Source: Streptomyces sp. BV286
GTDB lineage: Bacteria > Actinomycetota > Actinomycetes > Streptomycetales > Streptomycetaceae
Assembly: GCF_019090165.1 (NCBI RefSeq)
Contig: NZ_JAHRIB010000062.1
Span: forward strand, 1-64,000
Direction: 5' to 3'
DNA length: 64,000 nucleotides
Under the pieces are notes generated by a model, which saw only the letters and a program-made list of their open reading frames with translations, was not told where the DNA came from and did not search any database. The translations under genes and the position numbers were made by a program. This document shows, piece by piece, positions 10,161 through 44,411 of this stretch. Each line of letters opens with the position of its first letter. The stretch's first letter is position 1.

Positions 10161-10823
10161 ATGAGGATCGGCATCATCGGAGCAGGCAACATCGGCGGCA
10201 ACCTCACCCGGCGGCTCACCGCCCTGGGCCACGACGTGTACGTCGCCAACTCCCGGGGCCCGCAGACGCTCACCGAGCTGGCGCGGGAGACCGGAGCGAC
10301 CCCGGTCACCGTGGAGGAGGCCCCGCGGGACGCCGAGATCGTCATCGTCACGATCCCCCTGAAGGCGGTCCCCGGCCTGCCGTCCGGGCTGCTGGACAAG
10401 GCGGCCGACGGGGTGAGCGTCATCGACACCGGCAACTACTACCCCAAGCAGCGGGACGGCAGGATCGCCGAGATCCTCGACGAGGGCCTGACGGAGAGCC
10501 GCTGGACGGCCCGGCAGCTCGGCCACACCGTCGTCAAGGCGTTCAACGGCACGTTCGCCCAGGACATCCTGGACCGGCACCGTCCGGCCGGCGCCGCCGA
10601 CCGCGTCGCCCTCCCGGTGGCCGGCGACGACGCGACCGCCAAGCAGGCCGTACGCGACCTCATCGACGAACTCGGCTTCGACACCGTGGACGCGGGCGGC
10701 CTCGACGACTCCTGGCGCCAGCAGCCCGGCACGCCCGTCTACGGTCTGCGGGAAGGCGTCGAGGGAGTGACGAAGGCGCTGGCCGAGGCGTCGCCGGAGC
10801 GTACGACGGACTTCCGGGCGTAG
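10161..10823 (+). CDS. NADP/F420-dependent oxidoreductase-like protein
   Basis: 220 residues. It begins with a Rossmann fold, MRIGIIGAGNIGGNL, typical of F420H2:NADP oxidoreductases and the related metalloreductase-like dehydrogenases. It then has the nucleotide-contact segment VYVANSRGPQ and a catalytic-domain stretch VVKAFNGTFAQDIL. It would transfer hydride between NADPH and F420 or another acceptor in the cytoplasm; sequence alone does not separate these. A GAAAGGCGAG box precedes the ATG. The gene converges with the MOSC gene, whose stop is ten bases away on the other strand. Confidence 0.78.
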   Translation: MRIGIIGAGNIGGNLTRRLTALGHDVYVANSRGPQTLTELARETGATPVTVEEAPRDAEIVIVTIPLKAVPGLPSGLLDKAADGVSVIDTGNYYPKQRDGRIAEILDEGLTESRWTARQLGHTVVKAFNGTFAQDILDRHRPAGAADRVALPVAGDDATAKQAVRDLIDELGFDTVDAGGLDDSWRQQPGTPVYGLREGVEGVTKALAEASPERTTDFRA

Positions 10824-11385: not shown

Positions 11386-11940
11386 CTACGGGGTCGCCCA
11401 TTCGCGCAGGTCGGCGATGGTGTCGAAGCGTGCGACGTTCTTGTCCAGCGGGTCGTCGGTGTACTGGTGGAAGCGCCACTTGGCCTGGATGCGGGGCTTG
11501 CCCGCGGTAACGTAGTCGGCGATCCACAGACCGTCACCGGCGTACGAGGTGTCGTCGATGTTCAGCCAGAAGTGCCGGTTGCAGTACAGCACCACCCGGT
11601 TGTTCGGCCGGAGTTCCTTCACCTTGCGGATGAAGCGGTCCTTCTCGGCGTTGCTCGCGTGGGTGCCGTCGCTCGTCGTCTCCCAGTCGACGGCGAGGAT
11701 GTCGCCCGCCCTCTCCGGGGCCTTGCCGACGAAGTACTCGGCCTGGGCCGTGATGTTGCCCGGCCACAGGAAGTGGTAGAAGCCGACCACGCAGCCGGCG
11801 TCCCGGGCCCTCTTCGCCTGCGCGCCCAGCTTCGGGTTGACGTAACTCCGGCCTTCCGTCGCCTTGACGAAGACGAAGGACAGGCCCTCGGTGCTGTACG
11901 AGGACGACTGGTAGGAGCTCACGTCGATGCCGCGCAGCAT
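11386..11940 (-). CDS. GH25 lysozyme-like muramidase without signal peptide
   Basis: 184 residues, the whole of a GH25 barrel. It starts MLRGIDVSSYQ with the conserved Asp at residue 6 and has the catalytic pair in AVDWETT (D85 and E87), plus GFYHFLWPG and WIADYV. GH25 enzymes cut the beta-1,4 bond between MurNAc and GlcNAc. Most are secreted, but no signal peptide, Tat motif or wall-binding module is present, and GGAGGA directly supports this ATG. It may leave the cell by lysis or a non-Sec route, or act on imported wall fragments. It sits upstream of the MOSC gene as a probable two-gene unit. Confidence 0.88.
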   Translation of the reverse strand: MLRGIDVSSYQSSSYSTEGLSFVFVKATEGRSYVNPKLGAQAKRARDAGCVVGFYHFLWPGNITAQAEYFVGKAPERAGDILAVDWETTSDGTHASNAEKDRFIRKVKELRPNNRVVLYCNRHFWLNIDDTSYAGDGLWIADYVTAGKPRIQAKWRFHQYTDDPLDKNVARFDTIADLREWATP

Positions 11941-19725: not shown

Positions 19726-20040
19726 TCGTGGAGTTCCTCCTCGCATCCCCGCACCGCCTCCGGGCGGAATGTCCCGATCTACGCGGGTAAATGGGATGCA
19801 AGGCCCGTTCCGCCCCAAATGTCATGCGTCCGACCCCCGTTACCCGGCGTTCGGATAACGGAACCCCCCAGACAGCATCACGTTTGCGCATCCATTCACC
19901 GTCAGGTCTGGCTACAGATCGCTGAGGCGTTGAAGACTCCCGGTCCAGGGGGTTTCGCCCCTGTGTACGACGGACTGATCACGCCGCTACAGCGGCAAGC
20001 GTGGGCCGGCTACCGCCGGTTGAGAGGGGTCCCTGCCACG
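19726..20040 (+). promoter_or_regulatory. Leader region of the oligopeptide transporter operon
   Basis: About 315 bases without a gene ahead of the Opp-type operon. It contains an inverted repeat CCGTTA (19837-19842) / TAACGG (19856-19861) with a 13-base spacer, which could be an operator. Nearer the start codon are small hairpins such as GCCGCT-AC-AGCGGC (around 19983-19996). No confident -35/-10 pair was found. An open frame across it is GC-rich filler. Confidence 0.4.
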
Positions 20041-37344: not shown

Positions 37345-39585
<2,241 letters not shown>

Positions 39586-39846
39586 CGGTTGAAGACCACC
39601 CGTTCGGCGCATACCAGATGCATACGGGTGGCCGGGTCGCATTCGGGCAACCGTCGACGACCGCTGCCCGTAGAAGCCTTCTGCGGCCTACTGTTGAGGT
39701 GTGCGCCTGCCGTGCCCAGCTGCGGTCGGGGCAGCCTCCTGCTCCTCAGGAGCCGGGGGAAGGGTTTTCAGACGCGGTGCCGCTGAGGGATTTGTCGGGC
39801 ATCGGGCCGCGTGGCGTGGGCACCGCCGGCTGTGAGAGGGACGGGA

Positions 39847-42147
39847 ATGGAACCGACCGAGAGCGCCTCCCCGGACTCACGGCTGCGCCCACGCTGGATG
39901 ACCGGCGTGCGGCGGTGGGGTCACCCCTTGCTCCAGCGAAGCCGGGAGTTCGCAGCGGGTCTCGGGGCCACCGGTCCCACGGTGCGGCCGGGCCCGCCGG
40001 GATACGTCGCCGGACAGCGGAGCACGGCGCACGGACTCGGCCCCGGCCATCTCACCGCCGTCCCCGGAGCCCCCTCCCGGATGCCGGGTCAGGAGCCGGA
40101 ACAGAAGTCCTGGCCCGCGCTGCCCGCTGCGGTCGTCACGGCCGCCGCCTTCGTGCTGGGCGCGGGGTTCTACCGGGCCTTCACCGGGCACCACGCGCTG
40201 TTTCCCTCGGGGTCCGTCGGCTGGGCGCTGGCCGTCCTGGTCGGCGTCATCGTCGGCCACCTCGTCGCGCTCGGCCGTTCCCGCTGGTGGGGCGGCACCG
40301 GTTCGGGAGCGGCCCTCACGCTGGCCGTCCTGCTGCTCTACGGCTGGGTGCCGGCCGGAATGGTCAGCCTCACCGTCGTCGTCCTCGTCGGCATAGCCCG
40401 CCGCCACCGCTGGCGCCAGGGTGTCCTGCACGGTGCGGTGGACATACTGGGCATCGGCGCCGGGGCGCTGGTGCTGGCCGCCTTCGGCCGGGTGCCGTCC
40501 GTCGAGACGCCCTGGAAGCCGGAGACCTGGACCGTCTACACCGCACCTTCGGTGGTGTTGGTGGCCGGGGCGTATCTCGGGGTGACCCGCGCGCTGCTCT
40601 GGTACCTCCACGCGCCGCGTACCGCCGGACTGCCGACCGTGGCCCGTACCGCCCTGGTCAGACAGGGGCTGCTGGCCGTCGCGCTGCTCGGTATCGCCCC
40701 GCTGATCTGTGTCGTCGCCATCGCCCTCCCCGTGCTCCTGCCGCTCTTCTCCGTCCCGCTCATCGCTCTCGACTCCACGCTCTGGATAGCGCGCGCCCGG
40801 GCCGAGGAGCAACTGCGTGACCCCCTCACCGGACTGCCCAACCGGCAGTGGCTTCTCGAACGGACCTGGCGGGCGCTGGACGATGCCGAGCGAATCGGTG
40901 CACGTTCCGCGCTGATGCTGATCGACCTCGACCGTTTCAGGGCCGTGAATGACACGCTCGGGCATCTCGCCGGGGACCGGCTGCTGTTGCAGATAGCGGA
41001 CCGGCTGCGGGTCGCCCTGCCGCGCGGGGCGGAGGCCGCGCGGCTCGGTGGGGACGAGTTCGCCGTGTTACTGCCCATCGTCGACTCGACGACGTCCGCG
41101 ACGCGGGTCGCCCGCAATCTCGTGACGATGCTGGGGTCACCGCTCGACCTGGACGGGCTGACGCTCGTCCTGGAGGCCAGCGCGGGGCTCGCGGTCTTCC
41201 CCGACCACGCACTCGACGCGGAGGGGCTGCTGCGGCGGGCGGACGTCGCGATGTACCAGGCGAAGAGGGACCGCACGGGGGTGGAGGTCTACGAGTCCAA
41301 GCGGGACTCCAACACCCCTGACCGGCTCGGGCTGCTGGGGGATCTGCGACGGGCGCTCGACACGGGCGACGTCGAGCTGCACTACCAGCCGAAGGTGCGG
41401 TTCGACGGGCAGGTGGCCGGGCTGGAGGCGCTCGTGCGGTGGGTGCATCCCGAGCGCGGGAAGGTACCGCCGGACGAGTTCATAGCCATCGCCGAGTCGT
41501 CCGGTCTGATGCCGCATCTGACCGAGTACGTACTGGAGAAGGCGCTCGCGCAGGTGGCGAGCTGGCGGGCCCGTGGACTGCGGGTCCCGGTCGCCGTCAA
41601 CGTGTCACCGCGGGACGTGCACACGCCCGGGTTCGCCGGATCGGTGGCCGCGCGGCTGGCCCGGCACGGGGTTCCCGCGGGGGCGCTTCAGCTGGAGATA
41701 ACGGAACACGTGCTGCTGGAGGACCCGCAGCGGGCCGCGGACACCCTGGCCGGGCTGACCGCACACGGCGTGAAGATGTCGCTCGACGACTTCGGGACCG
41801 GGTACTCGTCGCTGGTGCATCTGCGGCGGCTGCCCGTGAGCGAGCTGAAGATCGACCGGTCCTTCGTGGCCCGGCTCGCGGTGGACACCGAGGACGCCGA
41901 GATCGTCCGGTGCACCATCGATCTCGCCCATTCGCTCGGGCTGGTGGTCGTCGCCGAGGGTGTCGAGGACGACGAGACGTGGGAGCGGCTGCGGGACCTC
42001 GGGTGCGACGCCGTTCAGGGGTGGCTCGTGGCCGCGGCGATGCCTCCGGAGGAGGCCACCGCGTGGCTGCTCGCCCGGGGGTCGCGAGGGTGGCAGCGGC
42101 CCGCCGCGGCGCTCCCCGCGGCGTTGCCCGCGGCGGCCGACGAGTAG
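39847..42147 (+). CDS. rmdB: Membrane-bound GGDEF-EAL c-di-GMP enzyme (RmdB-like)
   Basis: 766 residues. Six or more membrane helices (about 95-320) lead to a GGDEF domain (RLGGDEF at 401-405, no RxxD I-site) and an EAL domain (EALVRW from 527) with LEITEHV, LDDFGTGYSS, LKIDRSFV, VAEGVEDDE and QGW, so both activities look possible. RmdB is an established phosphodiesterase acting in aerial development, and its gene lies beside ligA in S. coelicolor as I recall. An in-frame TTA codon (41068-41070) follows the GGDEF motif. Start ATG 39847. The 261 bases upstream probably hold its promoter; no clear -35/-10 was found. Confidence 0.9.
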   Translation: MEPTESASPDSRLRPRWMTGVRRWGHPLLQRSREFAAGLGATGPTVRPGPPGYVAGQRSTAHGLGPGHLTAVPGAPSRMPGQEPEQKSWPALPAAVVTAAAFVLGAGFYRAFTGHHALFPSGSVGWALAVLVGVIVGHLVALGRSRWWGGTGSGAALTLAVLLLYGWVPAGMVSLTVVVLVGIARRHRWRQGVLHGAVDILGIGAGALVLAAFGRVPSVETPWKPETWTVYTAPSVVLVAGAYLGVTRALLWYLHAPRTAGLPTVARTALVRQGLLAVALLGIAPLICVVAIALPVLLPLFSVPLIALDSTLWIARARAEEQLRDPLTGLPNRQWLLERTWRALDDAERIGARSALMLIDLDRFRAVNDTLGHLAGDRLLLQIADRLRVALPRGAEAARLGGDEFAVLLPIVDSTTSATRVARNLVTMLGSPLDLDGLTLVLEASAGLAVFPDHALDAEGLLRRADVAMYQAKRDRTGVEVYESKRDSNTPDRLGLLGDLRRALDTGDVELHYQPKVRFDGQVAGLEALVRWVHPERGKVPPDEFIAIAESSGLMPHLTEYVLEKALAQVASWRARGLRVPVAVNVSPRDVHTPGFAGSVAARLARHGVPAGALQLEITEHVLLEDPQRAADTLAGLTAHGVKMSLDDFGTGYSSLVHLRRLPVSELKIDRSFVARLAVDTEDAEIVRCTIDLAHSLGLVVVAEGVEDDETWERLRDLGCDAVQGWLVAAAMPPEEATAWLLARGSRGWQRPAAALPAALPAAADE

Positions 42148-42905: not shown

Positions 42906-44411
42906 ATGACGGACAGCAACGTCAACATCATCAGGCTCACCGCCGCGGAGATCGCCGCAGGCATCGCCGCCGGTGAGCTCACGGCCGTCGAGGTCACCGA
43001 GGCCCACCTCGCGCGCATCGAGGCCGTCGACGAGAAGGTGCACGCCTTCCTGCACGTCGACCGGGAAGGGGCGCTCGCCCAGGCCCGTGCCGTCGACGAG
43101 AAGCGGGAGAGGGGCGAGAAGCTCGGCCCGCTCGCCGGTGTCCCCCTCGCGCTCAAGGACATCTTCACCACCGAGGGCATTCCGACGACCGTCGGTTCGA
43201 AGATCCTCGAAGGCTGGATCCCGCCCTACGACGCGACGCTCACCAAGCGGCTCAAGGCCGCCGACGTCGTCATCCTCGGCAAGACCAACATGGACGAGTT
43301 CGCCATGGGGTCCAGCACCGAGAACAGCGCGTACGGGCCCACCGGCAACCCCTGGGACCTGACGAGGATCCCCGGCGGCTCCGGCGGCGGTTCGTCCGCC
43401 GCCCTCGCCTCCTTCCAGGCGCCCCTCGCCATCGGCACCGACACCGGCGGGTCCATCCGCCAGCCGGCCGCCGTCACCGGCACGGTCGGCGTGAAGCCGA
43501 CGTACGGCGCCGTCTCGCGCTACGGCATGGTGGCGTTCTCGTCGTCCCTCGACCAGGGCGGCCCCTGCGCCCGTACGGTCCTGGACGCCGCGCTCCTCCA
43601 CGAGGTCATCGCCGGCCACGACCCCCTCGACTCCACCTCCATCGACGCGCCCGTACCGGCCGTCGTCGAGGCCGCCCGCAACGGCAGCGTGGCGGGCATG
43701 CGTGTCGGCGTCGTGAAGCAGTTCCGCGGCGAGGGCTACCAGGCCGGTGTCGTGCAGCGCTTCGACGAGTCGGTGGAGCTCCTCAGGGAGCTGGGCGCCG
43801 AGATCGTCGAGCTGGACTGCCCGTCCTTCGACCTCGCCCTGTCGGCGTACTACCTCATCGCCCCGTCCGAGTGTTCGAGCAACCTCGCCCGCTTCGACGG
43901 CCTGCGCTACGGCCTGCGCGTCGGTGACGACGGCACCCGCTCCGCCGAGGACGTCACCGCCCTCACCCGTGAGGCGGGCTTCGGCGACGAGGTCAAGCGC
44001 CGCATCATGCTCGGCACGTACGCCCTCAGCTCGGGCTACTACGACGCGTACTACGGCAGCGCCCAGAAGGTCCGTACGCTCATCACGCGGGACTTCGAGA
44101 AGGCGTTCGAGCAGGTCGACGTGATCGTGTCGCCCACGACGCCGACCACCGCCTTCCCGATCGGCGAGCGCGCCGACGACCCGATGGCGATGTACCTCGC
44201 GGACCTGTGCACCATTCCCACGAACCTCGCGGGCAACGCCGCGATGTCGCTGCCCTGCGGCCTCGCGCCCGAGGACAACCTGCCCGTCGGCCTGCAGATC
44301 ATCGCGCCGGCCCTCAAGGACGACCGCCTTTACAAGGTGGGAGCCGCCGTCGAGGCCGCGTTCGTGGAACGCTGGGGCCACCCGTTGATCGAGGAGGCTC
44401 CGTCGCTGTGA
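42906..44411 (+). CDS. gatA: Aspartyl/glutamyl-tRNA amidotransferase subunit A
   Basis: 501 residues, amidase-signature enzyme that releases ammonia from glutamine. The catalytic Lys is in PLALKDIF and the Ser-cis-Ser pair in [12 protein letters not shown] and [10 protein letters not shown]. It is the second gene of the operon and overlaps the next small gene by four bases (GTGA). Confidence 0.98.

Follow-up and report, generated by a model that had tools for sequence, protein, structure and literature searches.

Across Streptomyces, the rare leucine codon TTA has been repeatedly lost and regained at more than 20 places in the same gene, rmdB, a turnover for which no published account was found. 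The rmdB orthologue in the 64,000-nucleotide stretch of DNA analyzed here (hereafter, the window) carries one such codon, and we demonstrate below the codon itself, the tRNA gene that serves it, its conservation, and its turnover. The best explanation, which we hold with considerable confidence, is that the TTA ties synthesis of full-length RmdB to the bldA tRNA, whose supply is delayed in development, and that across Streptomyces this UUA checkpoint is retained at the level of the gene, not of a single codon, and lies before the EAL domain. Of the brakes on Streptomyces development, the bldA tRNA and c-di-GMP acting with BldD are the two that are best known.

The rmdB orthologue and its TTA codon

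The initial annotation had called the gene rmdB-like, and we assign it as the orthologue of rmdB (SCO5495), given the tandem GGDEF and EAL domains of its product (Pfam PF00990 and PF00563), the presence of one match per genome at E <1e-150 in nearly all Streptomyces genomes, and its flanking by ligA in 78/80 loci and by gatA in 77/80 (Table 1). Hydrophobic stretches were noted at the N-terminus of the translation. The codon was likewise found where it had been described, three codons past the GGDEF motif, as nucleotides 41047–41076 read GGT GGG GAC GAG TTC GCC GTG TTA CTG CCC (GGDEFAVLLP); the TTA is in frame and is codon 420 of the translated ORF (39811–42147, plus strand), counting from the GTG at 39811. 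It is the only TTA among the 109 leucine codons of rmdB, alongside 59 CTG, 43 CTC, 4 TTG, and 2 CTT codons. The N-terminal ~100 residues (window 39811–40113) are conserved only in a clade mostly carrying TTA at codon 420, and given that this region is otherwise poorly conserved, the start codon is uncertain. Codon 420 lies deep within the GGDEF domain, so this uncertainty is irrelevant to the TTA being coding.

Table 1. Features of the rmdB locus in the window
Feature	Position (nt)	Strand	Basis
rmdB orthologue, predicted membrane GGDEF-EAL protein, 778 aa	39811..42147	+	Single high-scoring orthologue per Streptomyces genome; between ligA and gatA
GGDEF domain, residues 336-488	40816..41274	+	Pfam PF00990, E 2.4e-39
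GGDEF motif, codons 413-417	41047..41061	+	Sequence read
TTA leucine codon 420, read by bldA tRNA-Leu(UAA)	41068..41070	+	TTA at same codon in 134/393 Streptomyces genomes
EAL phosphodiesterase domain, residues 511-742, 3′ of the TTA	41341..42036	+	Pfam PF00563, E 1.7e-72
ligA, upstream neighbour; TTA-free control, 78 related loci	37360..39585	+	NCBIfam LigA
gatA, downstream neighbour; TTA-free control, 77 related loci	42906..44411	+	NCBIfam TIGR00132

This TTA had also been described as the sole in-frame TTA noticed in the window, and that it is the only one holds as far as can be told: among window ORFs of ≥60 aa, none of the other TTAs lies clearly inside a real gene. The remaining in-frame TTAs fall in ORFs lacking coding-type GC3, in ORFs without a Pfam match where tested, or 5′ of the likely true start. 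The eighth codon of the longest ORF for an OppC-like permease is a TTA (19840–19842); the DNA there is richer in AT and probably lies 5′ of the true start. At 11508 on the minus strand, a TTA ahead of a MOSC protein is also 5′ of the likely true start. A lone TTA in a gene is in itself unremarkable, given that Streptomyces genomes each contain 51–505 TTA-bearing ORFs, according to a survey (PMC10327506).

In the 9.42-Mb genome of the window strain (G000), ARAGORN located a tRNA-Leu gene with the anticodon taa (UAA) on contig C190 (about 10436–10520, minus strand), and this gene is bldA. Of the 72 tRNA genes, those of Leu/Ser size and a few others were typed.

The published link between RmdB and bldA

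The dependence of RmdB on bldA is already known and is not new to this work (PMC7026642, PMC4255298, PMC10327506). In S. ghanaensis, rmdB contains a single TTA, upstream of EAL, and an rmdB-gusA fusion carrying it gave no GusA activity during the first 24 h, whereas a CTG version was active from 18 h; upon deletion of bldA, the TTA version was nearly untranslated and the CTG version was unaffected (PMC7026642). The tie between a c-di-GMP enzyme and bldA proposed in the initial annotation is therefore right in kind, being proved in S. ghanaensis (PMC7026642) and accompanied by a tRNA-Leu(UAA) gene in the genome of the window strain. The two genes are alike in encoding orthologous GGDEF-EAL phosphodiesterases with one TTA ahead of EAL, and the need for bldA was measured in S. 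ghanaensis; by analogy, we infer that the window strain shares the same dependence. The c-di-GMP phosphodiesterase activity of RmdB is known from S. coelicolor and S. venezuelae (PMC6205966, PMC13232838).

Conservation of a TTA in this gene has also been noted in surveys. Chandra and Chater listed SCO5495 as TTA-bearing in 7/14 Streptomyces and in Kitasatospora setae (PMC4255298, Table 2), and a survey of 213 species placed the TTA of a diguanylate-phosphodiesterase among 11 TTA codons conserved in ≥50% of species, the entry being S. coelicolor FQ762_RS28405 with TTA at nt 1171–1173, i.e., codon 391 (PMC10327506). From its annotation and tag number, FQ762_RS28405 is presumably SCO5495, and in L053, a relative of S. 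tendae, counting from a plausible GTG start places the same TTA at codon 392. In the portions available, these surveys give the presence of the TTA or one conserved position, whereas the alternative positions before EAL come from the present comparison; we found no published account of the many positions of the rmdB TTA and of its confinement before EAL. A further parallel is the TTA of adpA in the bldA-AdpA loop, also a conserved UUA checkpoint between domains of a developmental regulator. The adpA codon, however, is reported in all streptomycetes analyzed (PMC4255298), while that of rmdB has been gained, lost, and relocated.

Conservation and positional turnover of the codon

A pattern search for the site recovered TTA at exactly codon 420 in 134/393 Streptomyces genomes, with one match per genome, which is far beyond chance. 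The reversed control pattern gave no matches in the 393 genomes, and direct reading of 169 pattern-negative Streptomyces genomes revealed no missed TTA at this site. The leucine at codon 420 is invariant (343/343 orthologues), and parsimony on the gene tree gave at least 18 changes at this codon, with TTA in 98 tips. Conservation in orthologues, which the initial annotation had put forward as a check, stood in part: TTA occupies codon 420 in L342 as well as in the 134 genomes, but the three nearest relatives (L002, L111, and L031, about 91–93% identical), to which L342 is next in the gene tree, have CTG there and carry no other TTA in rmdB. The CTG of these three may reflect either a recent loss of UUA control or a regain in the window strain. 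Outside the genus, two orthologues from a distant Streptomycetaceae genus (g22; L290 and L299) carry TTA at the same codon and a second TTA each, suggesting an independent origin or an old site.

TTA also occurs elsewhere in the gene: of 169 Streptomyces orthologues that were sampled and lack it at codon 420, 49 have one at another position (residues 104–755 read). Combined with the 134/393 above, we estimate that ~53% of Streptomyces rmdB genes have some TTA, which fits the published 7/14. Turnover was then followed in 304 orthologues, nearly all labelled Streptomyces, by counting parsimony events on a FastTree gene tree. TTA was seen in 21 leucine columns, all between residues 104 and 420 (155 codons, 46 events), with no columns and no events after codon 420 in the 304 orthologues. 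Other leucine codons were spread across the gene, with events before and after codon 420 numbering 18:18 for CTA, 229:160 for TTG, and 98:103 for CTT, and the confinement of TTA gave Fisher p values of 1.6e-8 against CTA, 2.7e-6 against CTA with codon 420 excluded, and 5e-12 against CTA, TTG, and CTT combined. TTA is generally biased toward gene starts in streptomycetes (PMC4255298), so the upstream restriction is not peculiar to rmdB.

We considered whether the codon reflects a property of the region or of the protein family. That the first half of rmdB is simply more permissive of A/T-ending codons was rejected, given that GC3 is 0.944 in this half and 0.951 in the second, and that CTA, CTT, and TTG are not concentrated in the first. 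At the same 80 loci, TTA made up 50/8507 leucine codons in rmdB (49/80 loci with TTA), 0/5274 in ligA, and 0/3477 in gatA. An enrichment common to all GGDEF-EAL genes was not seen in the single paralogue compared, which had TTA in 2/24 genomes, near the N-terminus, against 13/24 for rmdB in the same genomes. In L397 and L399 of this PAS-GGDEF-EAL paralogue, the TTA is near codon 13 and may precede the true start.

The relocation of the codon is displayed within a 15-member Streptomyces group in which all members have a TTA, at positions 169, 205, 104, 292, or 317; the node joining the group is weakly supported (44), and its two main branches have supports of 86 and 100. One orthologue (L201, genome G082) carries three TTAs (169, 292, and 317) together with TTG at codon 420. 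No Streptomyces orthologue with TTA at codon 420 had a second TTA (0/96). Compensation as a cause of this mutual exclusion was set aside, as the raw p value of 5e-11 was not significant with independent pairs (2–4 informative). In other Streptomycetaceae genera, TTA occurs in 13/39 orthologues at varying positions, with six TTAs after codon 420, two of them inside EAL; these two, in L295 and L302 at residues 626 and 646, are the only cases of a TTA within this domain among the rmdB orthologues.

A probable UUA checkpoint ahead of the phosphodiesterase domain

Before the bldA tRNA is available, ribosomes reaching codon 420 would stall or abort within the GGDEF domain, and the resulting fragment would be missing EAL together with almost half of GGDEF. 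The cell would then have neither the EAL phosphodiesterase nor a complete GGDEF domain, c-di-GMP would stay high, and BldD would stay repressive until the developmental switch; across Streptomyces, the TTA has been lost and regained at many leucine positions, always ahead of EAL. In S. venezuelae RmdB, EAL is active on its own, and GGDEF binds sigma-WhiG, displacing the anti-sigma factor RsiG (PMC13232838); the useful place for a stop is therefore before EAL. A UUA anywhere before EAL would be enough to withhold the phosphodiesterase, which would explain both the free position of the codon and its confinement to the first half. Given that c-di-GMP activates BldD and that BldD regulates bldA (PMC7026642, PMC4255298), the arrangement of bldA, RmdB, and c-di-GMP closes a loop, the sign of which differs between species in the literature. 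UUA control of RmdB is not essential, as it is absent in the three nearest relatives and in about half of Streptomyces rmdB genes.

We think it reasonably likely that selection maintains the dependence of RmdB on UUA (bldA) as a trait free to move, given at least 21 positions and repeated loss and gain, always upstream of the phosphodiesterase domain, and selection would then be what drives the regain of TTA. An unlikely alternative is that the codon is a neutral relic, tolerated rather than selected as rmdB would be expressed only when the bldA tRNA is present anyway; its absence from the nearest relatives and about half of Streptomyces fits such drift. CTA is rare by base make-up like TTA, and is one mutational step from CTG, while TTA is two. 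Drift should thus leave at least as many CTA as TTA codons, yet upstream of EAL, we counted 155 TTA against 19 CTA, and downstream 0 against 19. Each TTA event also extends over many tips (98 tips over 18 changes at codon 420), unlike those of CTA (38 tips over 36 events). Experimental work bears on both sides: in S. ghanaensis, the CTG allele is translated earlier (PMC7026642), which speaks against a relic, while in S. venezuelae, rmdB lowers c-di-GMP at all stages (PMC13232838), which speaks for one and means that bldA control may not be universal.

That codon 420 instead serves local translation speed or the folding of the GGDEF hairpin, and not developmental timing, is suggested by its place directly after the GGDEF motif at an invariant leucine (343/343). 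We regard this as highly improbable, as TTA occupies over 20 unrelated places in other lineages, among them the hydrophobic N-terminal part; other slow codons show no concentration there, and translation in S. ghanaensis is almost lost when bldA is deleted (PMC7026642).

The UUA codon of RmdB connects the bldA tRNA with c-di-GMP and BldD, a connection already published. Should the dependence indeed be kept as a movable trait, convergent evolution would have brought c-di-GMP breakdown under bldA control many times over. As TTA has been lost and regained repeatedly, strains that have the codon and strains that lack it form a natural series, in which one could test directly whether it sets the timing of c-di-GMP breakdown. 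The turnover also suggests that genes with a moving TTA escape searches for bldA targets that rely on conserved codon position.
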